This document shows positions 245 through 35,929 of a DNA stretch of 37,666 nucleotides, one piece after another; position 1 is the first letter of the stretch; every line of letters begins with the position of its first letter. Both the position numbers and the translations under genes were made by a program. The stretch covers positions 1 to 37,666 of the forward strand of contig KE647169.1 of assembly GCA_000447185.1 (NCBI GenBank). The letters are read 5' to 3'. This DNA is from Vairimorpha apis BRL 01. Taxonomy: Eukaryota; Microsporidia; Nosematidae. The notes under the pieces are model-generated. The model ran no database searches. It was not told the origin of the DNA and saw nothing but the letters and a program-made list of their open reading frames with translations.

Positions 245-510
245 TCATTCCTCATCACTCAAATCAAAACAATTATTTCTTCTTTTAAATTGTATTTCGT
301 TTTTTTATTTTTATCTTCTAATTTATTCACTATACATAAATATTCATTATAAGATATTCTATTTCGTGTGCTGTGAAAATGTTGAATAAGCAGATCTTGC
401 AATAATTTACCTTTATCTTTATTAATATGTTTTAAATTATTTAATGATAGTAGACTTTTATCATCTAATATTTGTCTGATTATTTCATCATTATTATTTT
501 TATCTGACAT
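245..510 (-). CDS. PDCD5: PDCD5 / TFAR19-family protein, -1 frame change near the C-terminus
   Basis: Small helical protein of the PDCD5 (DNA-binding TFAR19) family, found in archaea and eukaryotes. In animals it is linked to apoptosis and prefoldin/CCT; its role in microsporidia is unknown. The core has the family pattern: a helix starting LLSLNNLKHINKDKG, then LLQDLLIQHF, then an N-EY-LCIVNKLEDKNKK helix. The open frame from the ATG at 510 runs to a stop at 259 with an unfamiliar tail. Shifting -1 inside the A7 run (coding strand, 300-306) restores the family basic and acidic tail QFKRR...LSDEE with a stop at 245. That gives 88 residues, slightly short for the family. A CCC motif lies 3 bases before the start. 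I am confident of the family; whether the frame break is real is undecided. Confidence 0.75.
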
Positions 511-513
511 TTA

Positions 514-516
514 GGG
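514..516 (-). promoter_or_regulatory. CCC start-proximal motif of the PDCD5-like gene
   Basis: CCC on the minus strand, followed by TAA and then the ATG. CCC or GGG just upstream of the start codon is a known microsporidian expression signal, and it supports the chosen start. Confidence 0.6.
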
Positions 517-785
517 TTTTTTTAAATATTAAAATTTATATATTCTGAACAAATTTTATGAATTAATATTTAATGATAAAAGTTTAAATTTAAAATAATT
601 TAACGAAAAATATATTAAACATTATAGTAACTAATTAATAGTTTTTTATAGATTTGAAAAAAATATTCATACATGTTTGATCTTTAAATAAATTTGAATT
701 AATAAATTAAGTTTTTTTGAAACTAAATCAGTTTAAAAATTAATTATATATTTTTAATTTAAAAATTACAATATATTTACATTAA

Positions 786-3700
786 TCATTTATTTTTTAC
801 TTTTATGCAATCTATAATTTTACAAACCCACTCACTTTTTATTAATTCTTCATAAAATATTTTTAACCCAATGGGAACATATTCTGAATTATAATATATC
901 CACATTAATGTAATAAGTTTGTTAACATTGTTTTTTTCATTTATCATCGTTTTTAATGCATTACTAGAATGAATTGTTACAAGATTTCTATCATTAAGGT
1001 TATCAAAAAGATAAATAAATATTAAATTTGTATTAAAATAATCTTTAGCTATAAATGTATTATTCTGCAACAATCTTCTAATTTTAAAATAAGTATTTTG
1101 ATTTTCTAAATAACTTATGTTATCCCTGTATCGATTAAATATATTTTTTAAATGAATAAATTTAATTTTACAAATGTAACTTAAATAAATACCGTATGTT
1201 TTTATAAATATTTTATCATCTTTTACAACTTCGAATATTTTAGTAACAGGATAAATAAATTTATCATTTAAATTTAAAATATTTAAACATTCTTCTGCTA
1301 TTGCAAAATCAAATAACTTAAATACAAATTTATGTTGAATTAATTCTAACCATCCAGTTGTAAAAAAAGGACATACACTTGGTTTTAAAATATTTATAAC
1401 ATCATATACTGTCTTAATATTTTCATTTGTATCTTCTATTATATCAAATAATTTAGTAAAAAATCTACATATAAATTTAATAAATAAATAATTTCTTTTT
1501 CTGTATGCGTCTATAAAAACTTCTAATGTGTCTTTTATATACAAATTTATATTATTCTTACACAATTTAGAAAACAAGTCAATTTTGTAAAAACAATATT
1601 CAGTAGGTACTTTATGATGTCTAACAAAATGTTCCCAACTTGATTTGAAAGCAGATTTTACATTCACACTTTTAAAAATTTTTGATTTTTTAGTATCTAA
1701 AAAAATATTAAATTTTTCATTTTTTACTATTTCTTCAAATTCCGATGTATTAAAATTTTCAAACAACATCATCAAAGAAGATATTTTTTGAAAAAAATCA
1801 TAAACTTTTGTGTTGTCGCTTAAATTTGAAAGTGACTCTAAAGTTGCTATAAAATCATAAACAGTACAAATTTGAACGTCTTCTGTTAAAAGATTACTTA
1901 ATAAATTAATTATAAAATCAATGTTTTCCTCGTTATTTAAACTCTTTGCTAATGCTTGATCATATTCTACAAGATTTAAAAGTTGATATTCTATAAATTT
2001 ACTAACAAATTTAACACTAAATCTCCTCGGATCAGATGAATAAATTAACCAACTAAGAACTTCTTTTTGTGTTCTATGTGAAATTTTAAACACGTTTTTA
2101 AGACATTGAAATAAAAACTCTAAAGAATCTTCTTGACTAACAAAATCAACATTTTCTGATATTCCTGAAATATTTGTCTGATTACCTATTTTTACTAAAT
2201 GTCCTGTTATATACTTACAAAGTTTTAGGCATTCTAAATCTTTATCCTCACTTTTTACAATAAATGAAATTATTCTATTAAATTCTTCTTCAGAATTATT
2301 GCCTAATAAACAATGCCATTCTTCAGAAACGAAATCAAGGCTATTTTCAATTTTTTTTCTGCTAATTTGAAGTAAATGAGATTTAACTTCTTGATAATCC
2401 ATCTGCTCAATTGGTTTAATATGAATTTTTTCAACATGTGTTGTATTTTCAAGAATTTCTAAATCTATATCCGTATTTGTCCCATATCTAATTTCAGTAT
2501 TTTTAAAATTTTCATTTATTAGATCACTAATCCTAGAAACTCCAGATCTTTCAATTAAATCACAACAGTTTTCTTGATTATTTGTAACTAAAAAATTAAT
2601 TTCTTCTGGTGTCAATTCGATGCTCGATAATTTCAAAAAATAATTTATATTTCCAGACATACAAGCTCTTAGAGGTTCTTGAGATGAAACATAACATAAA
2701 GATTTTGTTAAATTTATAAGTAAATTTCTAAATAATGGAAAATCATTGCCTTTTTCAACTTCAATAGTTTTAAACAAAGCCATTCCGGTTTTAAGTGCTA
2801 TTTCACAAGCATTTTCTACTATTGTTTCAAAAATTTCTCTAATACTAAAATCAAAAGCTAGTGATATCACATGTTTAATATTTTCATTATCTATTTTAGA
2901 AAACCCTGAACTTTCGTTTTGAAAACTATATTCTAACAAATAATCTCTTGTCTTTTGATTTAAAATTGGTTATAGATGTATGAGTAAGAGGTAAATTAAA
3001 AAATTTAAATATTTCGAAAATTTCTTTTCTGACATTTTGTAATGTACATGAATAAAGTTCACTTAAAATATTTAAAATTCTCATTAGCCACGGATTATTT
3101 GGAACAAAAATTTTTCCTTGTTTTCCTTGTTTTAATACACTACACAAAAAGGCCACACTAAATAAAATTCTTCTACATTCTATAGAATCAATCAAAAATT
3201 TCTTAAAATCAAATTTTTCTAAAATTACAATTTTGTTTCTAGCTAAAGTTAAACTTCCTATAATTGTACCCAACTTTTTTACAAATTCTATTTCGTTTTC
3301 CATATGAAAATTTAACAAAATTTTAGTGAAATTTAAACATGAATATACAAATTCAAAATTATTTTTCATTTGATCAGCTATTTTTATAATTACTGAAACT
3401 TCCTCTTTTTCTACAATTCTGAACAAAATAATTCCAAATTCTTCTTTATTTAAAACTTCTATATTTTCAGATATTTTTGAATTTTTTAAGTTATTTAAGA
3501 TGCTAATATGTTCATTTGACACATTAAACTTGAAACATAATTCAAATAATTCATGAAATTTCATCCTAGAATAAAAATTTTCGTCTACTAAAATTAATTC
3601 TTTTTTAATAAATTATTTTTGACATTTTCAATAGTTTCAATTTCGCTTAAAAATTTTGGCATTTTTCTTATAAAAGATTCTAAACATTTAAAAGCAAAAT

Positions 3701-5251
3701 GAAATTCTCTATCCGTTTCAGGATAACGCAAAGATTCTTTTAAATAACTAAGAGCTACCTTTAAAAACGGTTTAGGAATAATATCGTTCTTAATTAATTC
3801 ACCGTAAAAATTAGCTAATAGATCAGAATTTGGCAGTTTGTATAAAGCAGTATAATTTTCAATTAATGTGCTAAAAATTCTAAATGTTAATTCTTTTAAA
3901 TTATTATCTCCTTTTTGCATTTCTTTAATATTTTCAACACCTTCTTTAATGGTCATTTGAGAATTTATAATTGAACTAATAAAACTTGACGCTTGTTCTT
4001 CTATATTATAATCATTTCCTTTTTTATTTTAATAATTTGTGGAATTTGTTTTTTCAATTGATTTAATCTGTTTATGGTCTCAAAATTTAATTGTCTTTGA
4101 AATAATTCAATTGTTTTTATAAATGTTATAATAATCTCTACGGTTAGTGGAAACAATTTATCAATAATTAAATTATTTAATTTGACATTTAAATCAAATT
4201 CACTCTTCATTTCTGTAATTCCTTGAACTTTAAATTCAATATAATTTATTAATATATTTGCAAAAATGTCTTTTTTTGATACCATCATATTATTAAGCCA
4301 AATCCCTAAATTTAAATGATCTCTTAAAGAACTTAATATAATAATATCCATACAAATATTAGGAGGATCCAATTCTTCACTTACAAAAGGTAACATCTTT
4401 TGTTCTAAGATGATATCTAATACTTTTGACAATGAAATACCATTCGACATATATTTTTGTAAATTTTGTAGTATAATTTTAGATATATTCTTAAATAAAA
4501 TATAAAAAACAAAATTACTTGACGATCCACGCATAAAATTAATCAATAATTCATCAAAAAATCTTTTAAAAGAAGGGTAAACATGTGATAAACCTAGAAG
4601 ACACCATTCTGGTGCTTTTTTTGCAATTTGTTCTATTAAAATGTTAGAATCTAGTGTTTTTATACACTCAAATAGCTCAACACAATTAAAAGTACTTTCA
4701 TAATTTAAGATATTTTTAAAACGTAAATTTCTTGTTTCTTCTAATTTTACTATTCTTTTAAAAAAAACATTTGAATAAAGTTGTGTTTTTCTTTCATCAC
4801 TTTCAATAATAAGTCTAATGAAATATATTTGTGATCTTGAATTTTTCCATCTTTTAAAAAAAATTTCATACGGAACTGTAATAATTCCAGATATACAAAC
4901 CCAACAATCAATTATAACATATAATGAATCTAAAGACCAAATATTAAAATCTTCTTCTAAAAAATACGAATAAACATCTCTCCAATTAATTTCTTCTAAA
5001 TTAATTTTAATAGCTTCCATGATACCTTTAATATTCCAATTTCTCTCTGGAAAATCTGCCATAAATAATATCATTCTTGCAATTTCTTTTTTTTCAATTT
5101 GTCTTTTCTGCTTAATTCTTTGTAGAATTTCACTTATTAAATCTTTATTTATTTCTTGAGGATCAAGCCTCTCTAATATCTCTTTAAGATCTAAAACAAC
5201 AAATTTATCAAATATTTTATGTTTGTCTTGTTTCTTCTCTGTCGATTCCAT
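786..5251 (-). CDS. NOT1: NOT1 / CNOT1, scaffold of the CCR4-NOT deadenylase complex (four frame segments)
   Basis: NOT1 holds the cytoplasmic CCR4-NOT complex together, binding the CAF1/CCR4 deadenylases and NOT2-NOT5. Four adjoining open segments read in CNOT1 order. Segment 5251-4001 is helical, with a W-K and a DHLNLGIWL stretch typical of the HEAT region. Segment ~4022-3594 matches the tristetraprolin-binding-like domain (LKESLRYPE). Segment ~3606-2926 is the MIF4G domain that binds CAF1 (TLARNK, VPNNPWLMRILNILSELY). Segment ~2970-786 holds the CNOT9-binding domain (REPLRACMSGNI) and the C-terminal NOT1 superfamily domain (GWLELIQHKFVFKLF, YLFDNLND). The joins are -1 in A6G at 4020-4025, -1 in A6G at 3601-3606, and +1 somewhere in 2930-2970. 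The joined product is about 1488 residues, shorter than yeast or human NOT1, and the CNOT10/11-binding N-terminus appears absent. It starts at the ATG at 5251; no CCC motif is close. If the breaks were real and unrescued, this core gene would be dead, which is unlikely. Confidence 0.85.
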
Positions 5252-7836
5252 GCCTTTAATTTTTTTTTATTTTTATATCCATCTCACAAAATTGAACATT
5301 CATTTTTGTATAATTTAAAAAAAAACATTTATAAAATGTTGAATGATGATCATAAAAATGTAAACAAAATGAAATTCAATAATCAATAAGTTGAAAATTT
5401 TGATATGTTTAAAAAAATATAGAGAAATATTTCTAAATATGAATTTTTATACATTTAAATTTTTTATTCTTTGTCTGATATTTTTTAATAATCAAATAAA
5501 TTTTTAATAAATAAAATTTAAAAATTAACAAATATAATTTAAAAAATCAAAAAATTATAAACAAAAAACATTTTTTTTAATTAATTATTAAAATTTAAAT
5601 TTTAAGTAAAAAATACTTTTTTTAGTAATTCTAAGGTTGATATTTAAAAAAATAAATAAACTAAATGTCAAAATAATTAAATTTGACATATATGTATAAA
5701 TATAGATTATTGATTTTATTTATTCTTATATTTAATTATATAAAAAAGTTTGAATAATTAATAAAAAAATTAAAAATTATTTATATTGTTTTAAATTATT
5801 TTTAATATTATTGTATTAAATTTTAAAATAAATTTTTTTATATTTCAAAAAACAAATTAGAACATTGTTTTATTAAAAAAACCTATATTTCTTTGTAAAA
5901 TATTGTTTTTAAAATTTAATACAATAAACATAGGAATTTAATAAAATAAAAATTATTTTTTTTGGCTTATATTCTTTTTATTTATTAAAAAATATAAAAT
6001 TTTAAATTTATGTATTATTTTATTAAGAAAATTAAATTTTTAAAAAGAATATAAATATTATTCCAAATATAATAAACTTTAAATTAGGTATATCGATATT
6101 TCTGCTAAAAACATTTAAATATTTATGGTTTAATATTTTAAGGTAATTTTTAAAATGCAAAAGCTGTTTATTTTATGTTTACATAATAATTAAATGATAC
6201 AATTTTTTATATATTTTATGTATTGATTTTATTATGGCAATATTTAAAACATGCACATTAACCGTTTTGATATTTTTAAAGATTTTCATTTTTTATTGTT
6301 TATTTCTATTTTTTATTTTAAGAGACAGATATAATAGAAAATATCAAATTTTCTAGTTTAACAAGATTTTATTTAAGTATAAATTTAAAAAAATTTTTTT
6401 TGTATTATATATTAACCTATTTATATAAAGAATTTTAAGGAATTTACATACAAAATCAATATAAACTAAGCATAATAAAAAAACATGTTATTTTTAAATA
6501 TTCTGGTATACTTAATAAAAGTTCAATTTTATAACTTTTACAGTATTAAAATATACAAACAAATATCTTATGAAAATTTTTGATTTTTATATTTTAATAT
6601 GATAATAATATATCATTTCATTTATTTAACTTATTTTAATATACAAAAATTTAGTTGTTAAATTAAAAGAAACTACCATTAGCATTCTTCTGATAAATCA
6701 TGCAAAAAAAATAATCAAAAAATGAAGTCTTTAATTTTTTAATAAAATATTGTTCCAACAATTAACTAAATTGCTTTTAAAATTTTAAATTATATTAATT
6801 ATTTGCATATCTTTTATTTGTATAGATTACTTTTGATTTAATTGTCATAATGAAAAAAATTTTAAAATGATATTAAAATTATTTTTTTATAAAATTAAAA
6901 ATTAAATTAATAGTAATAAAATATTCTTTTACGGTTTTATTAAATATTTTTTTAATGTTAAAAATTTTTTTATTCATGATTTACTTTTTTATTTTTTTAA
7001 ATCAATATTTAATTTTTTCAAATTTATTTGAAATATATAGTATGATAACCTTTAAGATTTAAATTTATACAAAAAAATTATTTTATTACAGATTTTTCAA
7101 AATTAAAAAAATTTTAATATGAAAATCCATTAGAAAAAGTATTTTTCTTTATAAATAAAAAAAATTGTTTAAAATTGTAAGCAAGTAATATGAAAATGAT
7201 AAATTTAAAAAAAATAAATTAAATTATAATAAAGAGTGATTTTTATTATTTTTCTGGTTTTGATAAGATAAAATTTTTTGTTAATAAAAAAAAGTTAATT
7301 TTAATTTTAAAATTTATAATTATGGTAAATTTTTTAAATGAATTATTTTAAATGTTTTATCTAAAAATTTCAATATTTTTCTTAATTTTCTTACGTTTTA
7401 AACTATTTTATCTAAAAATTTTTAATATATAATTTTTCTAAATTTTTATAATTCAATTTAATTTACAAATTATAATGCTAAGAAACAAATATTTTTATTT
7501 TGTTATTTTAAATTTAACTATATATTATATTTGTATAAACTATTAGTATTAATAAAATTACACCTATATATATCTATTCTATAAATAATAAAAAATTATA
7601 AATATAATTTGTTTAATATATTGAAGAAAAACTGTATAGATCTATTATATTAAAGATTTTTGTAAATTAAATAAAAATAATTTTTTATAATGGTGAACTA
7701 AATATATACTGTATATTACAAAAAATTAAAAATATTAAAATATTAATAAATTAAAACATATGAAACATTTAAAATATACAAATTATATTTTTTATTGAAA
7801 CATTTTTTAATAAATATCAATTTATTATATTTAAAA
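5252..7836. other. AT-rich spacer, no supported gene
   Basis: A 2.6 kb stretch dominated by A/T runs and frequent stops in all frames. I see no domain, tRNA or CCC-ATG signal. A short phrase (TTTATCTAAAAATTT) occurs twice near 7356 and 7407. Confidence 0.5.
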
Positions 7837-8142: not shown

Positions 8143-9168
8143 ATGTTTTTAATAGTAATTAATTAAATAATTTTTATAAGTATAAAAATATGCACATACG
8201 AAATATTTTAAAATAATATAATAAATTTTAATATTTAATAATCAAATATATGTAAAAATTGCAATTTTTAAAATTTTTATCTAATTATAATATTTAAATT
8301 GTGATTTAATTTTATTTGTTAAAGATATTTAAGATAATTTGTTTAAAAATAAACATAAATTATTCATAAAAAAATTTATGCAATTTTTTTTAATAAGATC
8401 GTATAATTTAATATTTAATTAAAATAACTTTTTAAAATTACTATATTTGTAATATATTTACTAGTATAATATATTTTATGAAATAAATTTGTTTTAATTT
8501 TATGCAATTTTTAGTATTTATCTTATATTTTTTTTTTCAAAAAGATAAAAAATAGTTAATATTAATTATTTAAAGTATTTGTAGAATATTTTAACATATA
8601 TTTAAACTATGTTCATAGTTTAATTTTTTAAAATTTAGTATATTTATTAACACTTTAAAATAATGAAACAAAAATGTCAAAAAGTAAAAAATAAATTTTG
8701 TCTACAATTTTACATATATTTTAAATCATATTTGTTATTAATAATTAAAAAATAATAGTTTTTGTTTTTATATAATTCCAGAAAAATTTAACTAGAAAAA
8801 TAATATTAAATTTACTAAAATAAAATGTATAAATTTAATTTTAAAAAATTAATATTAAAACTTAAATATAATATTTTTTAAAAATTTAAACTTTTTTATT
8901 TAAAAAATTAAAACAATATTGTAATTTTACAATAATATTAAAAAACATACATAATTAATTTTTTCTAAAAATATTATGCAATTTATAGTGCATTGTATAA
9001 TATATGTTTAATTTTTATACTTATGCACATTGAAATATTTTATTAAGATACATTGTGTAATATATGTAAAATTGTTTTAAATTAACGCAAAAAAGGATTT
9101 TTTATTACCCAAAAAACATATTTTATTAATACTAAGTAACAAAAAAAATTTAAAAACCTACCGTTCTT
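8143..9168. other. AT-rich spacer with a short direct repeat upstream of the ferredoxin reductase gene
   Basis: No gene is visible. The only structure I noted is a 17-base direct repeat pair at 8991-9007 and 9051-9067, described separately. Confidence 0.5.
8991..9067. repeat. 17-bp direct repeat, two copies 60 bp apart
   Basis: CATTGTATAATATATGT at 8991 and CATTGTGTAATATATGT at 9051 differ at one base and are exactly 60 bases apart. They end about 100 bases before the ferredoxin reductase start, so they could be upstream promoter elements. The low sequence complexity makes chance possible. Confidence 0.35.
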
Positions 9169-10043
9169 ATGAAGGTTTGTGTAATTGGTGCAGGACCTTC
9201 AGGATTATACGTTTCTAAATTTTTAGCATCTTACGTTGATAAAATATCAATTTTTGAAAAAAGTAAAGCAATAGGTGGTCATTATAAATATTCTCAAAAC
9301 CCAAAAATGAAATCTTTTTTAAGAATATTGGAAAATAGAAATGTCAATCTTATTACTAATTATAAAATTAACAAAAAAACATTTCCTAAAATTGAAAAAG
9401 ATCACGATGTTTTTATTTTGGCAACAGGTGGAAAAGAAAAATATTTTAAAAATAAAATTACAATAAATGGTTTAGATATATTAAAAAATCGTATAGATTT
9501 AAAAAGTTTAGGTAATAATGTCTGCATTTTAGGAATGGGAAACGTTTCACTAGATATAATTCGAAAAATTTATAAGTTTGTATCAAAAATTGATGTTTTT
9601 TCAAGGTCAAATATTATGGATAGCAAATTTACAATTAATGAAATGAGGGATTTAATCAATCAAAATGTTTTTAAAATTAAAATTAAAGAAGATAAATCAC
9701 ATGCTAACATTCAAAATAATAGAAGATATGAAATGTTTAAAGATTTAAAAGATAATAATTCTAATAAAATATTGAATCTTTTTTTTAATGCAAATATTAA
9801 AGATATTATCAAAGCAGAAGACAAAATTAAAGTTTGTTTTGATAATGAAAAAAAGATTAATTATGATAGTGTTATAACAAGTTTTGGATTTGTACCTAAA
9901 AAATTAAATTGCTAACAAAAAAACCAATTTTTAAGATTGGTTGGTGTGTAGAAGCACGAGGCAACATTTCCAATGCATTAATTGATGCAAAAAAACTTGC
10001 TGAAAAAATCATTAAGAAATTTAATTTGCGAAAAAATTCTTAG
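9169..10043 (+). CDS. FDXR: minimal NADPH-adrenodoxin/ferredoxin reductase (mitosomal), -1 frame change
   Basis: This flavoenzyme passes electrons from NADPH to ferredoxin for iron-sulfur cluster assembly; in microsporidia it acts in mitosomes. Residues 3-12 are the FAD-binding GxGxSG loop (VIGAGPSGLY). ILGMGNVSLDI is the NADPH-binding Rossmann turn, and KFTINEMRDLI matches the family FTIKELREL segment. The open frame stops at 9915. A -1 shift in A6 (9898-9903) continues into the FAD-binding C-terminus (IGWCVEARGNISNALIDA) with a stop at 10041-10043. The joined length is 291 residues, far below the usual 400-plus. The loss includes much of the region after the first Rossmann loop, so this is a pared-down form. 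No mitochondrial presequence is evident. The start at 9169 follows a CCG-containing leader. Glutamate-synthase-type oxidoreductases are the nearest alternative family. Confidence 0.85.
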
Positions 10044-10294
10044 AATACGTTTACTTTTTTGTAAGAATTTATAAGAAAATATCATTAAAATTCTTTTTTT
10101 GATATATGAAGTATTATTTTTAAGTGTTTTAAAAAAGTTTTACTTATATCTTTTTATTCTTTTTTTTAAATTAAAATTTAATTTGAGCTAAAATTTCTAT
10201 ATGAAACCTTATGACATTTAAATTATGTAACCAAATTTTAACATGAAACAATGTTTCAAAATTTAATATAAAAAAATTTTAATTTGTTTTGATA

Positions 10295-12246
10295 ATGAAA
10301 AAAGCAATTAACATCTTTTATGTTGCACTAGCTGTAACTTTTTTAGGAGTAGTATATTACGTCGTTGATTATAAGGGTCTTGGACAAAAGAAGCTGAATA
10401 AGCTATTAAATTTTGATGATCATACATCCAAGTCTACTACTAATGAAATGTTATTGAAGACTGCTAATGATAGAATAAATCAATTAGAAAAGAAATTTGA
10501 AGAACATATCAAAGAACATAATTCTTCATCGAAAGGAATTCCTAAGTCGAAAGCAAAAGAAAACAAATTAAATGAAACATTTAAAGTGTCTACGCCTGAC
10601 AAACATTTAGATTTAACAACTTTTACAAGCAATGAAAAATTAAAAGATTTAAAAAACGATGATAAAATTTTTAAATTAAATGAGATGAATAATATAAATT
10701 CACAAGATGATGGTAAAGAAAACCTTTTAGACCTTGTTAAATTGCTTGCGAAAGATAATGAGAGAGATATGATTTTAAAAGATACTATTAATTTAATTAA
10801 TCAAAAATTAGTTTATCCAAGTAAAGAATATGAAAAAAATAAACAATATGAAACAAAAAAATCAAATGAACCTATGATGAATAAATCATCTGTTTTAAAT
10901 GCATTTGAAAATAAATTTAAAGGAAATGTTGTTGATCTTACACCTAATTCAAATCAAAATAACGAAAATTTTATTATTAATAACACAAAAAATAACAATT
11001 CTTTAGAAAATAATTTAAATGAAACTTCTGGAATTAAAAAACAACCTATGGATATTTTTGGAACCGAAATATTTAATCCTTTTAACTTTACAAATATGCA
11101 AAAACCTCCATTTGAAGAATCATATGACAAAAAAGTTCCACCCTATGATAATATTTCTGATCTAACAGATATATTACCTAGATCAAATTCTAATTTGTGG
11201 CATCCTGTTTTTTTCGAGCCAATACGTCGATTTAATGATGCTCCTAAAATTATTCCGATAAATGAATCAGATGAAAATCCAAATTTAGTTTCAGATAAAC
11301 ATCTAAAAGAAAAAATAAAGAATTAAATTTTAAACCTATCGAGGTTAAAGTTGAAAAAAAAGATAAATTAAATTCAGATAATGAGGATAAAAGAATAAAT
11401 AATTCTGATTTATTCAATTTAGAGTCAACAAGTGATACTTTATTTGATTTAGATATTAATAAAAATGACAAAAAAGAAGAAGATAAAACTTCTAAAAAAG
11501 ATAAACAGGTTTCTAAATCGTTAACGAAGAAAAAACAAAGCCCAATTAGTGAACACAAATCAATAACAGATGATTCAAAAGATAACATTTATACTGCTAT
11601 GATTACAACAAATCAAATTAAAACAAATCTTGATGATTCATTGGTTAAAGACATTATGAAAGAATTTAACGATCGACCGAAAGATTTAAGTGAAACTATT
11701 AAAGAAAAAAAACTTACGAAATCTAAAAATAAAATATCATCTAAAAAAAAGTCTGATAATATTGATGATCAAAATATTAAATTTGAAAACAATAATGATC
11801 AATTAACTAAGAATTCAGTATTTCCATTTAAAAAAACAGAAAAAAATTCGGTAAAATCTGATTTTGATGACTCCCCATTAGATATATCAAAAAACAACAA
11901 AAATCTTAATAATAAAGATAATAGTTCTTCATCATTCCAGGTACTCGACGATAAAAATAACGTCTTGATTAAAAAGGAAGATGATGGGGAAATAATATTT
12001 TCAAATAATTTTCCAGTACATAACGATATAAATGCATTTGTTGAGAATAAAAATGAAAAAAAGGATGATGATCTAAAGACAGAAAAATTTAATGATGATG
12101 ATGAAACTTTATCTAATTCACTTAAAAATAATACAAAATCTGAAAAAAATCCAACACAAAGTGACTATACTTTATTATCAGGAAAAAATGATAAATTAGC
12201 AGAAACATTATCATCAGTTAAAAATTTATCAGAATCGGATGCATAA
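10295..12246 (+). CDS. membrane-anchored, charged low-complexity protein, -1 frame change
   Basis: I do not recognise this protein. From the ATG at 10295 it has one N-terminal hydrophobic helix (about residues 5-24, INIFYVALAVTFLGVVYYVV), which would serve as a signal anchor. About 600 residues follow, dominated by Lys, Asn, Asp, Glu and Ser, with short coiled-coil-like pieces (INQLEKKFEEHIKEH). A small Pro/aromatic patch (MDIFGTEIFNPFNFTN... LWHPVFFEPIRRF) near residues 250-325 is the most ordered-looking part. The first frame stops at 11326; a -1 shift in A6 (11310-11315) gives open frame to 12246, 650 residues in all. The same composition on both sides supports one gene. A surface, secretory-pathway or mitosomal outer-membrane protein are all possible. 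It follows the reductase gene by 250 bases. Confidence 0.65.
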
Positions 12247-16967: not shown

Positions 16968-18802
16968 TTATTTACTTTTAAAATTACTAAAAGTTCTTTC
17001 AATATCACTATTTAATTGTTCAAGTTCGCTTATTAAACTGTCATCAGACATAATAAATTTCATTTTTATCAGTCTGTAAAAAATATCTTCAGTATGTTTT
17101 TTATATTGGCCCATGTTGTTTTACTATTCGAAATTATTTTTTGAGATTTTTCAAAATATGTTATTATATTGTTCAACATAAGTCTTGTTTTATCAAAAGG
17201 ACAATATCTATCATAATCAGAATAACCATTTTGTTGTAAAAAATCTTCTTTAATTAATTTCGAAATATCTAAAATAAGTTTTTCAGTTTCTGATAAAGCA
17301 TTTTTACCAACAAGTTGAACAATCTCAGAAAGATCATCATCCATTTGTAAAATTTCTTTGCACTTAGTTCTATTTTTAATAAAGTTTGGATCAATATTAT
17401 CATAAAATGGTTGAAGATTTGCAAAATATTTTGAATAAGATAAATTCCAGTTAATTGAAGGAAAATGCTTTCTTTGAGCAAGCTTTTTGTCAAGTCCCCA
17501 AAACACTTGAACTATACCTAGTGTTGCAGATGTAACAGGATCACTAAAATCCCCACCAGGTGGAGATACCGCACCAACTATAGTCACAGAACCAGTTCTA
17601 TCAGGAGAACCCAAACATTTAACAGCTCCGGCTCTTTCATAAAAAAATGCTAATTTTGCAGCTAAATATGCAGGATAACCACTATCAGCAGGCATTTCTG
17701 CCAATCTACCACTTATTTCCCTAAGTGCTTCAGCCCATCTTGAAGAAGAATCTGCCATCATTGAAACATTCATACCTTGATCTCTTAAAAATTCTGATAT
17801 TGTTATACCTGTATATATTGAAGCTTCTCTCGCAGCTACAGGCATATTAGATGTATTAGCTACTAAAACTGTTCTTTTCATAATACTATCGTTTTTACCT
17901 TCAACTGTCAATTTTGGAAATTCCATTAAAACTTCACTCATTTCATTTCCTCGTTCACCACAACCAACATACACAATTGCATCAGAATTTGAATACTTAG
18001 ACAAAGACTGTGATATAACTGTTTTTCCACAACCAAATGCTCCAGGTATAGCAGTTGTTCCTCCTTGGACACAAGGAAATAAACTATCTAAAATACGTTG
18101 TCCAGTAAACAACGGATTTACTGCGTTTATTTTTTCTTTGCACGGTCTTGGAATTCGAACTGGCCAACTGTGATATAAAAATAATTTTTTTATATTGTTT
18201 GAAGTTTCTACTTCAGCTACAATATCAGTAAGGGTATAAATACCTTTTGGTGCAATAAAAATAATTCGTCCATTTGTTTTTGGAGGCACAAGAATTTTAG
18301 TTTGAATAAGTGAATTTTCAAAAATTTCACCTAAAATATCTCCTTCGAATACATATTCATTTTCTAAAATTTTTGGAACAAATTCATATTCTCTTTTCCT
18401 ATCAAGTGATGGAATATCGATTCCACGTGGTATATAAATACTATTTATAGCTGACTGAATATCCTTTAAAGGTCTTTGAATTCCATCATATATATTTTCA
18501 AACATCCCTGGTCCAAGTTCCGCACACAAAGGTTTGCCTGTTCTGATAATAATATCATCAACACACAATCCACTTGTTTCTTCATAAACTTGAATTGTTA
18601 CTTTATCATTTTCAATTTTAATAATTTCTCCTGTAAGTCCTTCAGATCCCACCTTTACTAATTCGTACATGGCACATCCGGACAAATTTCTACCTATTAC
18701 CACAGGACCACTTATTGAATATATACGTCCTTCTTCTGATTCTTTTATTTCGTTTATATCAAGTTCCTTAAAAATTTTTTCAATAATATTAACATCTGAC
18801 AT
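16968..18802 (-). CDS. VMA1: V-type H+-ATPase catalytic subunit A, -1 frame change near the C-terminus
   Basis: This is the catalytic ATP-hydrolysing subunit of the V1 head, which drives proton pumping into vacuolar and secretory compartments. The P-loop GAFGCGKT is intact, followed by the catalytic-Glu region [10 protein letters not shown], the [14 protein letters not shown] segment and the strongly conserved [15 protein letters not shown] block. The open frame from the ATG at 18802 stops at 17069 with FFTD. A -1 shift in T6 of the coding strand (17078-17083) continues as FYRLIKMKF, equivalent to the family xYKxSxMKF end, then a short helical tail with a stop at 16968. The joined length is 611 residues, as expected for VMA1. 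The start is preceded by CC. The gene lies 240 bases downstream of the reptin gene on the same strand. Confidence 0.95.
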
Positions 18803-19039
18803 GGATTATTTTTTTTTGATTTTTTTAAACAAAAATCTGCAACATATGATATGATTTGTATAATAAATATTTTATGCAAAACACACAACAAAAAGTTTTA
18901 AATTTTATATAATTTAATAGATGTTTATTTTTAGAAATTTAACAACAACCAAAAAAAAATATAATTTCAATATGATCACTTTAAACTAAAATTTTTTATC
19001 ATAAAAATTTTAAAAAACCATAACAAATAACATAAAATT

Positions 19040-20238
19040 TTAATATAATTCTGTTATGTCTTGAAAATTGTAAAAAATATTCATCATTCTTTTAATATCT
19101 TCAACTTTAATTATTTCGGAATTTTTTATATTGCAAAAAATTTTAGACAGATGTATAATATTAATTGCATAACTTATATTTTTTTTAATACTTACATCAA
19201 TAATAAATTCGAGAGCAGATTCTTCTAATTGAATCTCTTCTAATTTAAATTTTTCAAAAAAAATACTTTTTAAATCTTCTTTTTGAATTTCTTTAGTTGA
19301 AACTACCAAAGTTGATTTAGGATAATTTTTAATATCTTCTGAATTTGTTGTTAAAATAACTAGTGGAGACTTACCAAATTCTATACTCTGAACTAATAAA
19401 TTTAAACATTCATCATCTAACATATGAGCTTCTTCAATACACAAAACACCACGCTGAATTTTAGCCTTTTCTTCCATAATCCACTTTCTTACTATTTCAT
19501 CAACTTCTTCCCTTGTATCAGAACTTATTTCTCCAGTTTCGCCATTATATAATCTAATAACACTATATAATTTATCATTTATTACATCAATATCATGCAT
19601 TGAAATTTTTTGATTTTCTTCAAGATTTTTAAACATTTCACCTTCAGGACAATTTACAACATTAGCATCACCTAAAAAGTCTTGTGTTTTTCTTGATGAA
19701 CTAATTCCAATTTTAATAATATTTCCTCTTTCCTTTACTATTCTGATTATATCACCGACGGTAATTCTTTCTTTTTGTATTTGTAACAACATTTGTTCGC
19801 CAATATCAAATATAGATTCCATATCTAGAGTTTTAAGTGTTAATTTTTCATTATTAAGACTTACAACTTCTCCTTCAATAATTTTTATATTGTCTTTAAT
19901 ATTTAATCCTATTGATTTACGAAGATTTTGCATTAAATATTCTGTTTTACTTATTACTTTGCTGTAAATTTCAGAAGCAGAAATTATATTAAAATTTATT
20001 TCAGGATAAAGCTCACCTTTTAAGGCATTAATCAAAGCTGTTTTTCCAGAACCAGAAGGTCCCTTTAATAAAATAAGTTTACCAATATAATTTTTTCTAA
20101 TAAATTTTTTAAAATGTTAAAACTTTTTTGAATTTGTGGTTGAATTATAAATGGTGAATCTGAATTATTAGAATCAAAATTTTTCAAATGTGAATGATAT
20201 CCTATTTTTTGCAATTTGTTTGGAATTTGAGAAGTCAT
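19040..20238 (-). CDS. RVB2: RVB2 / reptin-like AAA+ protein with degenerate ATPase motifs, -1 frame change
   Basis: Reptin pairs with pontin in INO80/SWR1 remodelers and R2TP. The N-terminus from the ATG at 20238 carries the IG-HSHL motif. A -1 shift in the coding-strand A6 run (20105-20110) leads into Walker A GPSGSGKT, the RKSIGL segment, the domain II core (KLTLKTLDMESIFDIG), CPEGE and HDIDVIN. GETGEI and the LTLKT-DMESI stretch favour reptin over pontin. Joined length is 399 residues, against about 460-470 in the family. Oddities: Walker B reads CIEEAH instead of IDEVH, the stretch SPHGIPxDLLDR with the arginine finger is missing between TTNS and LVVST, and the sensor 2 Arg of LRYA is replaced (ISYA). 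It may be a weak or inactive ATPase subunit. A CCC motif one base before the ATG supports the start. Confidence 0.85.
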
Positions 20239-21864: not shown

Positions 21865-21877
21865 AAATTTAAAATAT

Positions 21878-22915: not shown

Positions 22916-23649
22916 TTATAATTTTCTTATTGTATTAATTATATTAAAAAATGCAAGTGTATTATTTTTATCAATTTCAAAAATAAAATTGTCAATTGCT
23001 CTTTGTTTTTTATCAGTTTTATCGTTTTTTATTATTCCATTTGATATGTTTAAAAGTTCTTTATATAGATACATATAGTATTGTATTTCTTTATTTCTAA
23101 TTCCGTCAAACATATTAATAAACAAAACATTTTCACTAATATTAATCTTCTTAACATTAATATCATTCAAAGGCTTTCCATCAAGTACATTTTTAAAAAC
23201 ATCATTGCAAATTTCTTCTATTGTTTTTGTGTACATAATAACATTTAATGATTTTTCAATTACAATATTAATTAAATCTAAACAATTCAAATCATCACAA
23301 GCTAAGATTCTTTTTGTTTCCATTTTAAAAATATATTCGTTAATATTATGATTTTTATTGATTTTCAAAACACTTGTAACATCTTCAATTTTTAAGTTAT
23401 TAAAAGTAAATGTAGAAAATATTTCAAAAAAATAATTTTTTTGTTTTTCATTTTGTTTAAAACATTTAATAAAATTAAATCATATTTATTTTTTACAAAA
23501 ATAAGAATTTTACTTTGATATGGTAAATTTCGAATGTTTTTATATATTTTGTTTTCGAATTGTTTTATAAAACATGCATCACAATAATTTAGTACATTTA
23601 TTTTAATTTTTGATTGTTCTTTACAAATTATACAAAGAAAAAATTTCAT
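22916..23649 (-). CDS. CTU2: CTU2 / NCS2, cytoplasmic tRNA 2-thiolation subunit, -1 frame change
   Basis: CTU2 works with CTU1 to thiolate the wobble uridine of Lys, Glu and Gln tRNAs. The N-terminus has the paired cysteines CIICKE and YCDACF with the following F-xK-xxK helix, a CTU2 hallmark, then a degraded P-loop strand (ILIFVKNKYDLILL) in place of the SGGxSS signature. The first frame stops at 23392. A -1 shift in the A7 run (coding, 23436-23442) or the adjacent T7 (23426-23432) leads into NYFFEIFSTFTF and then the C-terminal half, with ILACDDLNCLDLINIVI and the R-x-K-EI-YY-YLY segment of the family. The joined length is 244 residues, well short of other eukaryotic CTU2. CTU2 is normally non-catalytic, so loss of the P-loop residues is tolerable. 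The start at 23649 follows CCCC. Confidence 0.75.
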
Positions 23650-23650
23650 T

Positions 23651-27804: not shown

Positions 27805-27810
27805 CACTTT

Positions 27811-27813: not shown

Positions 27814-29866
27814 TTATATTGAAATTTTTATAAAAAAACCTTGATTTATTAAAATATTGAAATCAAAATTTTAATACACATATTAATAATCAAAATATAA
27901 TTATCATTAATATTTTTGTTTATTTATATTTAGATTTGTTTTTTTTTTGTTTAAAAATTTAATTTTATGTGACTAAACAATACCATTGATAAAAAAAATT
28001 TATATATAATATTTTATTTATTTAATTTAAAAGATTTAAAATGAATGAATTTAAACTACTTGACTATATAATTTTTTTTATACATGTCAAAAATAGTAAT
28101 CACAAATCAATAAAACTAAAATAATAATAACAATATTTTAAAATATTATGTAAATTTTTTTAATTATATGTTATTTAATGAAAAAGGTAATTGTTAGTTT
28201 TAATTAAATAAACAAAATACAATATATTTTTTTTCTAAGATATTAAAAGTTTGTTTATTTTATTACTTTTGGTTACAATAAAAAATATATTTTTTAAATG
28301 ATAAACTAGATTGAAATTACAACATAAATTTTTAACAACTATTAAATAAATTTAATTGTAAAGTATAAGAAATAATTCTTAAATATAAATTTTTTATATT
28401 ATTAAAAATATTTTTTTTAAAAAAGTATAAGCAAAAAAATTATCATTAAGATTTTAAAATTACTAAAATATATTTAAAAAATTAATAATGCTTTAATAAA
28501 AACTTTTTAAATTTACTATTTTATGATTGTAAAAAAATATAATGTATATTTTTTACAGAATTTTATAATGTATAACATAACTTTTATGTTTGTAAAATAA
28601 AATCAATAACAATATTTATTTTAAGATTCTCAATTTAATAAGTTTTGTTTTTATGAAATTGTTTTTCTATTTTTAAATTTATATTTATAAAAAATAATAA
28701 AAATTTTATTTTATTAAAACAATAAATAGATTTCTTTTAATTGTTAAGAAGTACTTCTAATATAATAAATTAAATATAAAGTTTAAATATCTTATTTATA
28801 TTTATGTTTAATTATTAACCACATAAAAAGTTAAATTTAAAAATTTATTAAACAATAATAATGAATACATTTTGATTAAAATATATTTTTTTCTACCTGT
28901 TATATAATATATATTTTAACTTATTTTTAGATTTTTGTAAATAAAAAAATGTCTACAATAAAACATTTCTCTAAAAAATTTAAAACTAATTCAAACATTA
29001 TTTTTTTAAATTATTTTAAAATTAACAATATTTATATTTTTTTGAAATCTAAATTTTTTGTTTTTTATCCACATAAACATAAATTTTAAATGTTAAAATT
29101 GTAAAACAAATTAAATAGTATTATTTATAGTATTTAATTTTATAAATTATACATTTGTACCTTAAGTTAAACCATCATTTTTTATTTTTCAAAAATTTCA
29201 TAAAAATAAATTATTTTTTAAAAGAATACATCTAAGTATATATTTTTAAAATCTCTTTATGATTTAAACATTATAATCAGTTGATAAAAAAGTATGTTTT
29301 TTTTGTACATTATTAAATGAATTAATTTAAAATTATGATTATATATAATAAATCATAATTAACAATATGTATGTTTAAAATAGTATGATTTGTTATAGCA
29401 ATTTAATTAAATATAATGATTTACATTTTTTTGATAAATGTGATTTATATAAGTAATTTACAAGTAAAAAATATCATTCAAAATAAAAAAATAAAAAATT
29501 TTATAATTTTTTAAATATAAATAACTTAAAACAAATAAATATTATTTTACAAAATAGATATAATATTATTTATTTTTAAATAATTTTTTTTACTATATTT
29601 AATAAATAGATAAATTTTTTAATAAAAATTGTTTATCATATTAATTATAGTATAGTTTTCAATATTACCATTCATTAAAACATTTTCAATGTATTTTTTT
29701 TTATAATAATATTGAGCAAAATACAAAGTTTTTAAATTAAAGTCTTAAGCTTTTTTAATTTAATTTTATTTGTAATATTTTTTTAAATATAACATACATT
29801 TATTACATATCTAATAAATTTTATAGTCCTATTTTACACAGTTTATAACAAAAAATTTAAATACAT
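27814..29866. other. AT-rich spacer between divergent genes
   Basis: Two kilobases with no supported gene. A 47-codon plus-strand frame at 28949 is open but has the composition of its surroundings and no CCC signal. Confidence 0.5.
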
Positions 29867-29869
29867 CCC
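29867..29869 (+). promoter_or_regulatory. CCC start-proximal motif of TFIIF alpha
   Basis: CCC, then TCTT, then the ATG at 29874. Confidence 0.6.
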
Positions 29870-29873
29870 TCTT

Positions 29874-30718
29874 ATGAAAAATTTTCGTATGATTTTTTTA
29901 CCAGATGTAAACAAGAAAAAATGTATTTTTACTAATATAAATATATCTGAACTTAGTCCTCCAGTTGTAATTACACGTGAAAAACCAATAGAAGAAGAAG
30001 TTGTTTTTAATTCTAGAAAAAAAAGTGAAATTTTAGAATATGAATCAGAAGAATACAAAAAATTAAAAAATAAAGAATCTTGTCCTTTATTTATAGAGGA
30101 TGTCGATCAAGTATCATTTACAGGTAAGTTACAAAATTTGAATTCTAATTCATGCTATTTTACATTTGTTAGAGAAGGAGAAAATATTTATATTACACCT
30201 ATTCATAAATGGTACAGATTTACGCAAAAATTTAATGTTAATAGTGATATAAATTCTGAAGATATAACTAAAATTACTTTTGAAAAAAATAAAATAGAAG
30301 ACGATTATGAATCGGACAAAGAGGAGATTGATTTTGACGATGTATTTGAAGATGATGATGGTGAAGATTATAATTTTGAAATTCATCGAACAAAAAAATT
30401 AACAAAAACAGGGAAAAAATTACGAAATTTAGTTGAAAGTTTAGAAAAAAGTGAAAATTTTGAAGACGAGAGTGAAATAGAAGAAAAGATTAAACGAGAA
30501 AAATCGTTAGATATAAAAAAACAAATTTACTTACATATGAAGACATAAAAGGTTACTTTTCATCTTCAAAGATGTCGGTTAAGGAATTAATTAGAAAACT
30601 TAAAACAAATTTTGAATTAAATGAGGAAGATAAACATGTTTTAAAGAAATTTATTAATGAAAATTGTAAATTTGAAACAAATAATAATGGTGAAAAATTA
30701 TTGATATTAAGGAAATAA
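29874..30718 (+). CDS. TFG1: TFIIF alpha subunit (RAP74/TFG1), -1 frame change
   Basis: Large subunit of general factor TFIIF, which escorts RNA polymerase II into the preinitiation complex. The N-terminal dimerisation part contains the conserved LEYESEEYKKLKNKE... PLFIEDV stretch and the IHKWYRFT motif (VHNWYNFT in human RAP74). A short acidic linker follows (FEDDDGED). The first frame stops at 30548. A -1 shift in A7 (30517-30523) restores the C-terminal winged helix, YEDIKGYFSSSKMSVKELI through LNEEDKHVLKKFI, ending at 30718. This corresponds to the human TEDAVRRYL...TTKDLLKKF domain. The joined length is 281 residues, about half of human, because the acidic linker is nearly gone. TAF8 follows on the same strand 124 bases later. 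Confidence 0.85.
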
Positions 30719-30842: not shown

Positions 30843-31358
30843 ATGGATGAAATAATAAACCATATTATTATTAGGATAATTAAAGAACATGATTTTAATT
30901 TTGCCGATAATAAAGCTATATTATTGATTAATGAAGCATTAGAAATTTATTTAAGATCTATATTGAAAACATTATTTTCACATACACTTCACGCTAAAAA
31001 AACGTCTTCGAATATTTTATACTTGTTAAGAATACTTGGAAAAAAAGATATAAATTTAACATGCTCTTTAAATCCTATACAATATCAGAAACTCTGTCCT
31101 ATCAAAATTCCTGAATTTAAATCTCCTTTGTCGACTTATTTAGAACGATATATTCATATTTATGAGTTTATGCCTAATTTTCCTCCTACTCATACATTTA
31201 GAAATACTTTTTGTAAAAATAAAGAAAAAGAAAACATACCTGAACAAGTTAAAAAAAGATTAGAACAAAGTTTAAAGACAGAAAAAAATTTATTTAAGAT
31301 AATTAAAGCCTCGGGAAAAATGCCTAAATTTATTAATTATTTGTATAGTAAAAAATAA
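30843..31358 (+). CDS. TAF8: TAF8, TFIID subunit
   Basis: TFIID subunit with an N-terminal histone fold and a downstream TAF8-specific segment. Residues 1-70 form the histone-fold helices (MDEIINHIIIRIIKEHDFN, then the long AILLINEALEIYLRSILKTLFSHTLHA helix ends). The TAF8 C-terminal motif follows: YIHIYEFMPNFPPTHTFRNT, equivalent to the family xFPxPHTYxxT signature, then a charged helix with KKRLEQSLKTEKNL. It is a single intact frame of 171 residues, shorter than the animal protein but about the size of the conserved core. The start is the ATG with an abutting CCC. The gene is next to TFIIF alpha, both Pol II initiation factors, though shared transcription cannot be shown. Confidence 0.8.
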   Translation: MDEIINHIIIRIIKEHDFNFADNKAILLINEALEIYLRSILKTLFSHTLHAKKTSSNILYLLRILGKKDINLTCSLNPIQYQKLCPIKIPEFKSPLSTYLERYIHIYEFMPNFPPTHTFRNTFCKNKEKENIPEQVKKRLEQSLKTEKNLFKIIKASGKMPKFINYLYSKK

Positions 31359-31550
31359 TCATTTTTGTGTTAGTAATCAAATTTTTTTATTTTATTAATT
31401 TGTCACTATATATTAATAAAATAAACTTTTTTTAAATAATGTAATAAAAAATTTGAATACACAATTAAATTAACAATTATTTATTTTTTTTAAAAACATA
31501 CACTATAAAGTTTTCTTTATATAAAGTTATTAATTTATTTAAGAATAATT

Positions 31551-32247
31551 TCATTTACAAAACTCTCTTACAAATTCGTATCTAATTAATTGTACCAGAT
31601 CAAAAAATTTGGTTTTATCTTTTAATACACAAGTAAATCTTTCAATACTACATATTTTAGGATAAACATCAACGATTGTATATCCATCGTTTAAATCGAT
31701 AATAGCATAACATTCAAAAGACTCATCTTTACACAATTTATCAAAAATAATTTTTATTTTATTGTTATCTGTTACTTGAAAAAAATACCTAAATATTTTT
31801 TAAATTCATCTACACGTGTTTGTAATTTATATTCTTTTTTCTGATTAGTTTTAGTAATTGTATCGATCTTTTTTTTAAATCTAACATCATTGTTTTTTTA
31901 TCATAAAGATCATTACTTAAATCTTGGTTTATTAACTCTTGTTTTTCAATTTGATTCTTTAATTTTATATTCTCTTTTTCAATTTGTTCAATATCATTAT
32001 TTTCTGATCTTACCAAATCTAAGTAGTAATTTCTATCTTCTAATATTTTATTATATTGATCTTTTAATGTATCATATTTTTTGGATAATTTAGTATTTAA
32101 ATTTTTAATCTCGATCTTTTCATGTTTAATTTCTGATTTAATTTTTGAAATTGATTTTTCTATTTCAATCTTTTGGTCTTCGAATTCTGATTCTATGTCG
32201 TTAATCAGGGATTGTATTCTAGAAATATTATTTGATTTTTCAGTCAT
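31551..32247 (-). CDS. SPC25: probable kinetochore protein Spc25 (NDC80 complex), two -1 frame changes
   Basis: Spc25 pairs with Spc24 to link the NDC80 rod to the inner kinetochore. The first 145 residues are nearly pure coiled coil (SEFEDQKIEIEKSISKIKSE onward). A -1 shift in A6G (31835-31840, coding AAAAAAG) continues as KKEYKLQTRVDEFKKYLGIF. A second -1 shift in T7C (31779-31785, coding TTTTTTTC) continues into the globular RWD-like domain, FQVTDNNKIKIIFD, then GYTIVDVYPKI and a C-terminal FVREF helix, fitting the Spc25 fold (LGIxFxxxxxxxIxFxxI, YxVxxCxPxL, FxxLxRxxF). The joined length is 232 residues, typical of Spc25. Spc24 has the same design and is the main alternative. It has a CCC motif 3 bases before the ATG and converges on TAF8. 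Both shift sites are perfect X-XXY-YYZ slippery heptamers. Confidence 0.65.
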
Positions 32248-32250
32248 CTA

Positions 32251-32253
32251 GGG
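32251..32253 (-). promoter_or_regulatory. CCC start-proximal motif of SPC25
   Basis: CCC, TAG, then the ATG at 32247 on the minus strand. Confidence 0.6.
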
Positions 32254-32485
32254 TTATAAATATTTAAAAAAGTAAACTTTTTATAAATAAATTCAGAATT
32301 ATTTATACATATATTAAAAAATTTTTGAAATAATTATAGAATAATGAATTTTCATATTTTTGATAATATTTAAAAAAATTTTAATATTAAAAGATTAAAA
32401 TAATAACATTTTTTAAAGCAAATTTACTTTTTTTTAGGATCAAATTGAGATTTTAAAATGTATATTACTATTCATTAATAAATAC

Positions 32486-32847
32486 TGGTCTTAAGCCCGA
32501 AGCCTTGTCCGAAGGAGTAGAAAAAAACTCATTATTTTCACAATAATAATTTTTATTTAGACTCAAAATGTGAGGGGCTATTTTCGACTTAAATAGTTAC
32601 GAATTAATTTAACCGCCAAAAATACTCAACTAGTAAAGAGGAAATTAAGCTTCCTCACCTATAGAGGTGAGATTATTCTAACCTCGCTTATTATTTTCAA
32701 GGTCTTCTGTCAAACATATCACCTGTCATAATTAATATAATTTCCCTCCTTTAATCAGAATCACTCTAAGTTTGGGATTCTGATGGTCAGAGACGGCTTG
32801 TCTCCCGGCAAATACAATCCATAAAACTTTTAAGATTATTTTTTTTT
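32486..32847. ncRNA. structured non-coding RNA candidate, about 360 nt (Pol III type if plus strand)
   Basis: An island of much higher G+C with no reading frame but a series of hairpins. These are CTATTT/AAATAG (32578-32596), GAGGAA/TTCCTC (32638-32656), CTCACCT-ATAG-AGGTGAG (32654-32671), a perfect 9-bp ATCAGAATC/GATTCTGAT stem with a 13-base loop (32754-32784), and GAGAC/GTCTC (32790-32804). On the plus strand the ends close as TGGTCTTAA (32486) with TTAAGATTA (32830), using two G-U pairs, and T9 follows directly, like a Pol III terminator. RNase P, MRP or SRP RNA would fit size and shape, but I could not match their conserved boxes. The minus strand offers a rival reading as an Sm-class RNA, given in the findings. 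Strand is therefore left open. Confidence 0.6.
32839..32847 (+). terminator. T9 run, possible Pol III terminator
   Basis: Nine T immediately after the putative closing stem of the structured RNA. In so AT-rich a genome T9 is not rare, so the weight comes only from its position. Confidence 0.4.
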
Positions 32848-34208
32848 GATCGAAGGTAAGTATTTGAGTGAAATGAATATAAAGAGTATAAGGTGGAAAG
32901 AATAGTGGATAATGTAATTAATAATATACATTATAAAAGTGTCATTATTTAAGATGCAAATCCTAAAAATCTCCAAACAAAAAAACGCTAAATAGTTTAA
33001 ACTATGAAATTATTTATATATACAAGATTGAAAATACAAATGAAAACAAAAACACAATAAACCTATTCTATTATTTATAAAAAATAAATGTAAACATTTT
33101 TAGAAAAACTTTCATTGTATTTTTTTTTAAATTTATAAATTTAATAAAAACAAATGTAACAAAAAGAAAAAATATTATTAATTAAAATATAGAAATCAAA
33201 ATGATATAATTTTCATTTGTTTTTTAAAATAAACACCCTTGTAATTGTAAATAATTTAATATAGTATATATATAAATTAAAATCCATAGATCATTAACAT
33301 TTTTTGTAATCAAGTATTATATCTAAATTTTTTTTCATAAAAAATATCTTAAACATTAGTAGTAAAAATTTATAAAACATTGTTTTATTTAAATATCTCT
33401 AATATTAATAAATTTAAACAAAATTACTAAGGTTAAAAAATTTGTTTATGTTATAAAAATAATTATATTTTACATTCCATTATTTTACAAATTTTATAAA
33501 AAATAAGATTATTGTTTTAAAAATTAATTATAAGTAAAATAATTTTTTTTTATATGAAAATCTTATCTTAAAACTTTTATATGTAATAATATCGCTTTTC
33601 AAGTAAAATTAAATTCATCATGACTATAAAATTTTATTTAGATATTTTTTTAGCTTTGTTAATATTTCAATTTTGATTTTATTTTCAAATCGTAAAGTAT
33701 AATTATTAATTTAATATGAAATGCATTTATTCTTTTTTTATAGGGATGATGTATAATTTTTTATAATACATTGAAAATCTATTTAAAAAAGATTTTAAAA
33801 TATATAAGTATAATAATTGACAATTTAATATTAAAAAAAATTTATATACATTTGTAATTATTTAAAATTAAAATTAAACTATTCTTTTATCGTTTTATAA
33901 GAACAATTAATGGTAGTATATTTTAAAATTAAAAATTATTTTGTTTATTTTTTTATTATGTTTTTTTCACATGATAAATTATATTTTTTATTCAAAAAAT
34001 ATTTCTACAGTAAAATTTAAAATTTTTTGTTTATGTCAATATTATTAATAATTTAATTAAAACATAATTTGGTATATTTCATATTGGTTCATTAATCAAT
34101 GATACTTTACATTAAATAGAATTTACAAATATATATTAATGAATGTTATAAGAATTTTTTAATTAAATTTTAGGATATAAAAGTTTGTTTGTTTTTATTT
34201 CATCATTA
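32848..34208. other. AT-rich spacer
   Basis: No gene seen. The first 16 bases contain AGGTAAGTAT (32854-32863), discussed in the findings. A CCC on the minus strand near 33743 is not followed by a usable frame. Confidence 0.5.
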
Positions 34209-34211
34209 CCC
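34209..34211 (+). promoter_or_regulatory. CCC start-proximal motif of ABC transporter copy 2
   Basis: CCC, TAAT, then the ATG at 34216. It marks the true start upstream of two frame changes. Confidence 0.6.
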
Positions 34212-34215
34212 TAAT

Positions 34216-35929
34216 ATGAAAGAAAAAACAAATTTAGAAATATTACATGATACATTTGTTAATATTGTTATGATATACCTTATATTCGATACACAATGAT
34301 GCCTGTATTAATGTCTACAATACTAGCATGTTATCTAGAGTAAAAGCCAGTGTGGTTTCAAAAGATATTGTTGAGTGTATACAAAATATAAAATATGGGA
34401 GGAAATGTATTATTATTTATAATGTATTACGGCTTTTCTATAATTTTAAAACAAGTAATGAAATTGTTTTTAGTGGACCTATACAATTTGTTTACAAAGT
34501 AGTAGGTGTAGAGGCTTTTTTTCATTATATTTGTCTTGATTTAGATACATTTAATAATGTAGGTAGTGGAGAAATTCAACAAATTATTGAGAGAAAAAGT
34601 AGAGCATATGGTGACATATTAGAACTGACAACTTTGTCTGCTGTTCCTACATTGATAACATTAATCATATCTTTTTATTCGATTTATATTAATCTTGGAA
34701 GTCACGCTTTATTTGTTATGATAATTACAGGCACAATTTATGTAATTTTAACTTTTATTTTTTCAGTGTGGAGGACAAAAGTAAGAAGAGCATATAATAA
34801 ATCACAGGATATTTCTTCTAACAAACTACAAGACTTTCTAGCTAATCATGTTACTATTAAATCTTATAATACAGAAGAAAACACAATACAATATTATGAT
34901 GAAACACAAAAATCAGTAGAATATTACGGAATAAAATCACATAGAATATTATATGGAATGTTTTATTTGCAAAAACTTATTTTTAGCTTTCAAGCAATTA
35001 TTATCATAGCTTTAGGATGTTATGGTTTTTTCCCTATAAAACTTAATCCACAACAACTTGTTTTTTATATTTCTATATCTAAAACGTTGACTAGCTCATT
35101 AAATGAAATGGGAATGTTGTATAATAGATATGTACAAGGTTTTTTAAATGCAAAATCAGGATATTTTGAATTCAAAGAGCCTGATCAGTCTGGATTACTT
35201 AGAGTAGCTAAATTTGAAAAACAAATAGAATTTAAAAATATAACATTTTCATATAATAATAATAATATTCTAAAAAATACATCATTTTTAATTAATAAAA
35301 ACGAAAAAGTTGCTATAATTGGAAAAAACGGTACAGGAAAATCAACAATTATTAAAATTTTAATGAAATTTTACAACTATGATGGTCAAATTCTTTTGGA
35401 TAACAACGATATTCAAATTATAGCTGATAGAGTTTATAGATCAATTATTGCTTATGCTACACAAAACACTTTTCTTTTTAATAATACTGTATCTTATAAT
35501 ATTAAATATGGGAATAAACAAATATCAAATGAAAAAATTTTGGAATACTCAAAAAAAATGGGAATATTTGAGCATATACAAGAACTTGATAATAAATTTG
35601 ATACATACGTAGGAGAAAGAGGAAGACTTTTACCTGGAGGAGAAAGACAAAAAATTATGTTAATGCGATCACTTTTAAAAACTTCACAAATTTTGTTAAT
35701 GGACGAACCTACTTCTGCATTAGATAGATCTTCCGAATCTGAAATTATTGAATTTATTTTAAATGAGTATGAAAATAAAACTATTTTAATGATTGTTCAT
35801 AATCTAGATTTGCTTAGGTTGTTTGATAAAGTACTATTTGTTAATAATAAAAAAATAGAAGTTATAGAAGATGTAAAAAATAAAATTTTACAAAACAACA
35901 ATTATTTTAAAAATTTAATAAACTGTTAA
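34216..35929 (+). CDS. ATM1/ABCB7-like half ABC transporter (copy 2), N-terminus in three frames
   Basis: Paralogue of the copy at 26.1-27.8 kb, presumably also an organellar exporter. From the CCC-marked ATG the first frame (NLEILHDTFVN) aligns with copy 1's ILKEILYEYVF. A -1 change near 34267-34275 reads the first membrane helix (PYIRYTMMPVLMSTILACYL). A second -1 near 34327-34342 enters the long frame that continues to 35929. Neither change sits in a homopolymer. The rest is intact: NVGSGEIQQIIERKS, Walker A GKNGTGKST, Q-loop YATQNT, Walker B ILLMDEPTSALD and H-loop IVHNLD. The signature motif is LPGGERQ instead of LSGGERQ, a substitution that would be expected to matter in a canonical site. 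Joined length is 571, almost equal to copy 1 (569). It may be a functional paralogue with sequence errors, or one beginning to decay. Confidence 0.8.

Follow-up and report, generated by a model that had tools for sequence, protein, structure and literature searches.

Single-base frame breaks in conserved genes of a Vairimorpha apis contig are very probably assembly errors

Frameshifted genes rescued by slippage have been described in Buchnera and Blochmannia, with eight such genes in B. vafer (PMC3017870). In nanopore sequencing, deletions predominate in long homopolymers (PMC8486125), and the systematic errors that stay uncorrected are mainly homopolymer indels, which shift reading frames (PMC8011154). 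A paper on a microsporidian annotation tool likewise names sequencing errors among the sources of frameshifts (PMC10815200). The window analysed here, 37,666 bases of Vairimorpha apis BRL 01 making up the whole of contig C103, has features of both settings. As in Buchnera and Blochmannia, single-base frameshifts lie in A/T tracts of conserved genes in an AT-rich intracellular organism; there, however, each genome has only a small number of frameshifts, some of them conserved across species (PMC3017870), whereas here the comparable breaks are missing from other sequence. With nanopore-type assemblies, as characterised in the papers cited above (PMC8486125, PMC8011154), the window and the assembly around it share a deletion bias, an association with A/T runs of at least 6, a spread across genes in general and spurious split genes.

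The assembly comprises 5,960,447 bases (5.96 Mb) in 223 contigs, and the draft is AT-rich, with a GC content of 0.188 in the window and about 0.19 over the entire sample. By protein comparison the named relatives of the window proteins are microsporidian; the first NOT1 piece shares 68% identity with its Vairimorpha necatrix relative, and RUVBL2 shares 44% with that from Nosema granulosis. Families recognised by Pfam or through solved relatives include V-ATPase A, a TIP49 (RUVBL) protein, Spc25, TAF8, an FAD/NAD(P) oxidoreductase and the second-largest subunit of one of the RNA polymerases. An ABC half-transporter ORF at 34274-35929 seemingly lacks its N-terminal part, and directly upstream of it (34174-34343) a different frame holds a short open stretch.

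The original prediction held that genes of the window carry frame breaks, nearly all of them one base short, and named A/T runs as the sites of eleven of its 14 frame changes. That the window sequence contains such breaks was borne out in NOT1, the frame pieces of which match successive CNOT1 domains in Pfam, in the order CNOT1_HEAT, TTP_bind, CAF1_bind, then DUF3819 with ARM. The genes and breaks that could be set against near-identical proteins are the following.

786..5266, minus strand: NOT1 (CCR4-NOT subunit 1), in frame pieces 4001-5266, 3594-4028, 2926-3612 and 786-2969
4019..4025, minus strand: NOT1 break, one base short, at a T6 on the plus strand (tblastn of P0122)
3600..3609, minus strand: NOT1 break, one base short, including the T6 at 3601-3606 (tblastn of P0122)
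2947..2970, minus strand: NOT1 break, one base too many, without a long run (tblastn of P0122 and frame scan)
19043..20238, minus strand: RUVBL2 in two frames, with a break at about 20104-20110, one base short (alignment to P0001)
31554..32247, minus strand: Spc25 in three frames, with breaks at T8 31869-31876 and A7 31779-31785, each one base short (Pfam Spindle_Spc25)

The comparison covered NOT1, RUVBL2 and Spc25 and was made at the protein rather than the DNA level, by tblastn alignment to the window of proteins carrying the source tag 'lgn'. For NOT1 the 'lgn' protein P0122 is an unbroken chain of 1506 aa (5 members, longest contig 17,990 bases), and its identity to the four pieces in order is 99.8% over 416 residues, 100% over 142, 98.6% over 221 and 100% over 722. 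The surplus base of NOT1, which the alignment places at 2947-2954, is presumably the single +1 change of the original prediction. P0122 also extends upstream of the first piece in another frame (window 5223-5303), so that one more small length difference may sit just before the probable start; an error, a difference between strains or the choice of start site could each account for this mismatch. RUVBL2 is unbroken in P0001 (399 aa, 13 members), to which the main piece is identical at 354 of 357 residues and the upstream piece at 44 of 49. Spc25 is unbroken in P0121 (232 aa, 6 members, contig of 1,605 bases); the outer pieces match it at 125 of 127 and 76 of 77 residues, and the first frame switch, at residues 125-127 of the alignment, corresponds to T8 31869-31876.

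All six breaks in these three genes are absent from the 'lgn' proteins, the length difference being -1 five times and +1 once, and apart from the breaks the window pieces are 90-100% identical to those proteins. Of the two explanations originally offered, this result supports systematic homopolymer under-calling and leaves rescue of genuinely short runs by slippage or frameshifting unsupported. The tag 'lgn' presumably denotes Logan, a resource that includes transcriptomic libraries besides genomic ones (PMC12424806). Since Logan includes RNA libraries, an RNA origin of the 'lgn' proteins is possible; the contig carrying NOT1, at 17,990 bases, is difficult to reconcile with a transcript, while the 1,605-base Spc25 contig could be one. 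Judging from the few residues at which they differ from the window, for example 3 of 357 in RUVBL2, the 'lgn' proteins may stem from another strain.

These data bear directly on the hypothesis that the DNA itself lacks one base in each run and that the full-length protein arises through slippage of RNA polymerase or through -1 ribosomal frameshifting. The precedent in Buchnera and Blochmannia and the fact that the broken genes belong to conserved families speak for it. Against it stand the six comparable breaks missing from near-identical proteins, one of them encoded on a contig long for a transcript, although their possible RNA origin softens this point. Other NOT1 proteins, 92%, 74% and 68% identical over the first piece, are also single proteins, of 1501, 1522 and 1512 aa, and all 37 NOT1 proteins among the matches listed measure 1443-1704 aa, in a search that admits only 0.55-1.75 times the query length and to which split records are therefore invisible. 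The literature retrieved for microsporidia together with programmed ribosomal frameshifting concerned viruses, judged by titles. Furthermore, the break rate estimated below, about 0.6 per coding kb, would require a large fraction of the genes to be rescued, compared with the eight of B. vafer. Taken with these points, we consider rescue at the RNA or ribosome level extremely unlikely.

As to the individual sites, four of the eleven listed runs (3601-3606, 4020-4025, 20105-20110 and 31779-31785) coincide with breaks located by tblastn of near-identical proteins, but 31835-31840 had been misplaced, the break lying at the T8 of 31869-31876. The A8 runs in NOT1 and the putative RPC2, adduced against simple miscalling, are indeed both in frame. 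As an argument against miscalling they are nevertheless weak, because calling errors spare some runs, because a run of called length 8 is itself the site of one of the six breaks, and because in one read-level survey the share of length-8 runs read correctly was no more than about a quarter (PMC8486125).

The remaining listed runs have weaker support; most fall in the following genes.

9154..10043, plus strand: FAD/NAD(P) oxidoreductase, which we take to be adrenodoxin-reductase-like, with a break near 9898-9912 (Pfam Pyr_redox_2, open piece 9900-10043 in another frame, frame scan)
10283..12246, plus strand: unrecognised charged protein, with a break near 11299-11315 placed by the frame scan only
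16968..18805, minus strand: V-ATPase subunit A, with a suspected break near 17078-17083 and an open tail at 16968-17120
29793..30718, plus strand: unrecognised ORF pair, with a suspected break near 30515-30524 (frame scan, loosest penalty only)
259..510, minus strand: dsDNA_bind-like ORF, presumably PDCD5-like, with a suspected break at 300-306 (Pfam 19.8 bits, below the cut-off of 26)

The alignment of the V-ATPase A gene to the yeast protein (617 aa) ends at yeast residue 571, and the frame scan gave no match at the suspected break. In the ORF pair the A7 run sits at 30515-30521, not at 30517-30523 as first given. A Pfam scan returned no family above its cut-off for the charged protein, and the gene at run 23426-23442 likewise had no Pfam match above cut-off. 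We infer that the breaks lacking a near-identical comparison share the assembly-error cause; there is only the barest chance that some of them, such as that near 11310-11315 in the unrecognised gene at 10.3-12.2 kb, are genuine, with rescue in the RNA of this microsporidian.

The extent of the phenomenon was estimated by a frame scan with start and stop rules over 190,878 bases, made up of the window plus whatever was readable in 17 other stretches; L005 (GC 0.32), L006 (all N) and L009 (466 readable bases) were excluded. At penalty 12 the scan placed 57 breaks (44 short, 13 long) in 88,477 coding bases, the rate of about 0.6 per kb referred to above, and at penalties 8, 10 and 15 it placed 87, 65 and 42. 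As control, six Buchnera pLeu plasmids (46,556 bases, 40,224 of them coding), a smaller and GC-richer set (0.26), gave no break at penalty 12 and 2, 0 and 0 at penalties 8, 10 and 15. Penalty 12 recovered five of the eleven listed runs (4020, 9898, 11310, 20105 and 31779) along with the Spc25 T8 break and the +1 of NOT1, and nothing at listed runs 300, 3601, 17078, 23426 and 30517; since listed runs were missed, the scanned rate is likely a lower bound.

When two matches at sequence ends were dropped (window position 37663 and one other), 55 breaks remained, 43 short and 12 long. A run of at least 6 lay within 10 bases of 51% of the 43 short-type breaks, 25% of the 12 long-type breaks and 12% of 5,000 random coding positions. 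Both the bias towards short breaks (43 vs 12) and their enrichment at runs (51% vs 12%) exceed chance in this 191-kb sample, window included. Roughly one in five breaks in the scan is of the +1 type, and most of these lie away from long runs, with only the quarter just given near runs of at least 6; this is a counterpoint to homopolymer error and a difference from nanopore-type assemblies.

The absence of the comparable breaks from near-identical proteins, in addition to deletion-biased, run-preferring breaks across the sampled assembly, favours the explanation that the frame breaks are assembly errors and that the genes of this organism are ordinary and unbroken, which we hold to be very probable. 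The draft would derive from error-prone reads and be incompletely polished, with single bases lost, or more rarely gained, chiefly at A/T runs; the platform appears to have been nanopore-like. The apparent gene breaks are then most likely an ordinary data artefact, and until the draft is polished, its gene counts, its apparent pseudogenes and any supposed recoding are unreliable. If rescue were true, this would be a eukaryote tolerating frameshifts to an extreme degree, a reading against which the near-identical proteins speak.

Breaks elsewhere in the assembly speak for assembly error and bear also on a further possibility, namely real indels specific to this isolate, either of recent origin or still polymorphic, as when a polyploid genome carries them in a single copy. 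The CCT chaperonin family gave 13 matches at seven loci, of which two span the whole profile in one frame and five are divided among two or three frames, and of 12 proteasome-family matches 8 stay in a single frame across almost the entire profile while four are partial or contain stops; the partial matches in both families may also include introns or true divergence. The few residue differences of the 'lgn' proteins indicate that strain differences may exist. Nevertheless, such a rate in core genes (CCT, proteasome, NOT1, RUVBL2) is hard to reconcile with the viability of the isolate unless it also has intact copies, and a search of the assembly for a second V-ATPase A found one copy and no other. 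The pieces are moreover otherwise 90-100% identical to the 'lgn' proteins, and we regard real strain-specific indels as very unlikely.

Run lengths are compatible with assembly error but not decisive for it. The window holds 61, 8 and 3 A/T runs of 8, 9 and 10 and none longer; in 20 other stretches (163,678 readable bases) the numbers are 202, 59 and 7, with one run of 11. Noncoding DNA, as defined by the scan, has 9 runs of at least 10 where an order-4 chain predicts 60, a deficit also present in the mostly coding Buchnera plasmids (L104-L109), with 5 runs of at least 10 against about 33 expected. The idea of a homopolymer cap as decisive proof was dropped on account of this control and the deficit is treated as supporting only, since natural avoidance can also produce it. 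The same plasmids have a slight excess of A/T runs of 9, 37 vs 28 expected, ahead of the sharp drop at 10 and above, a pattern that looks like natural avoidance. Among the sampled stretches L005 (G000:C5:1-10000) stands apart with a GC content of 0.324 and few long A/T runs, and may represent another organism or a special region.
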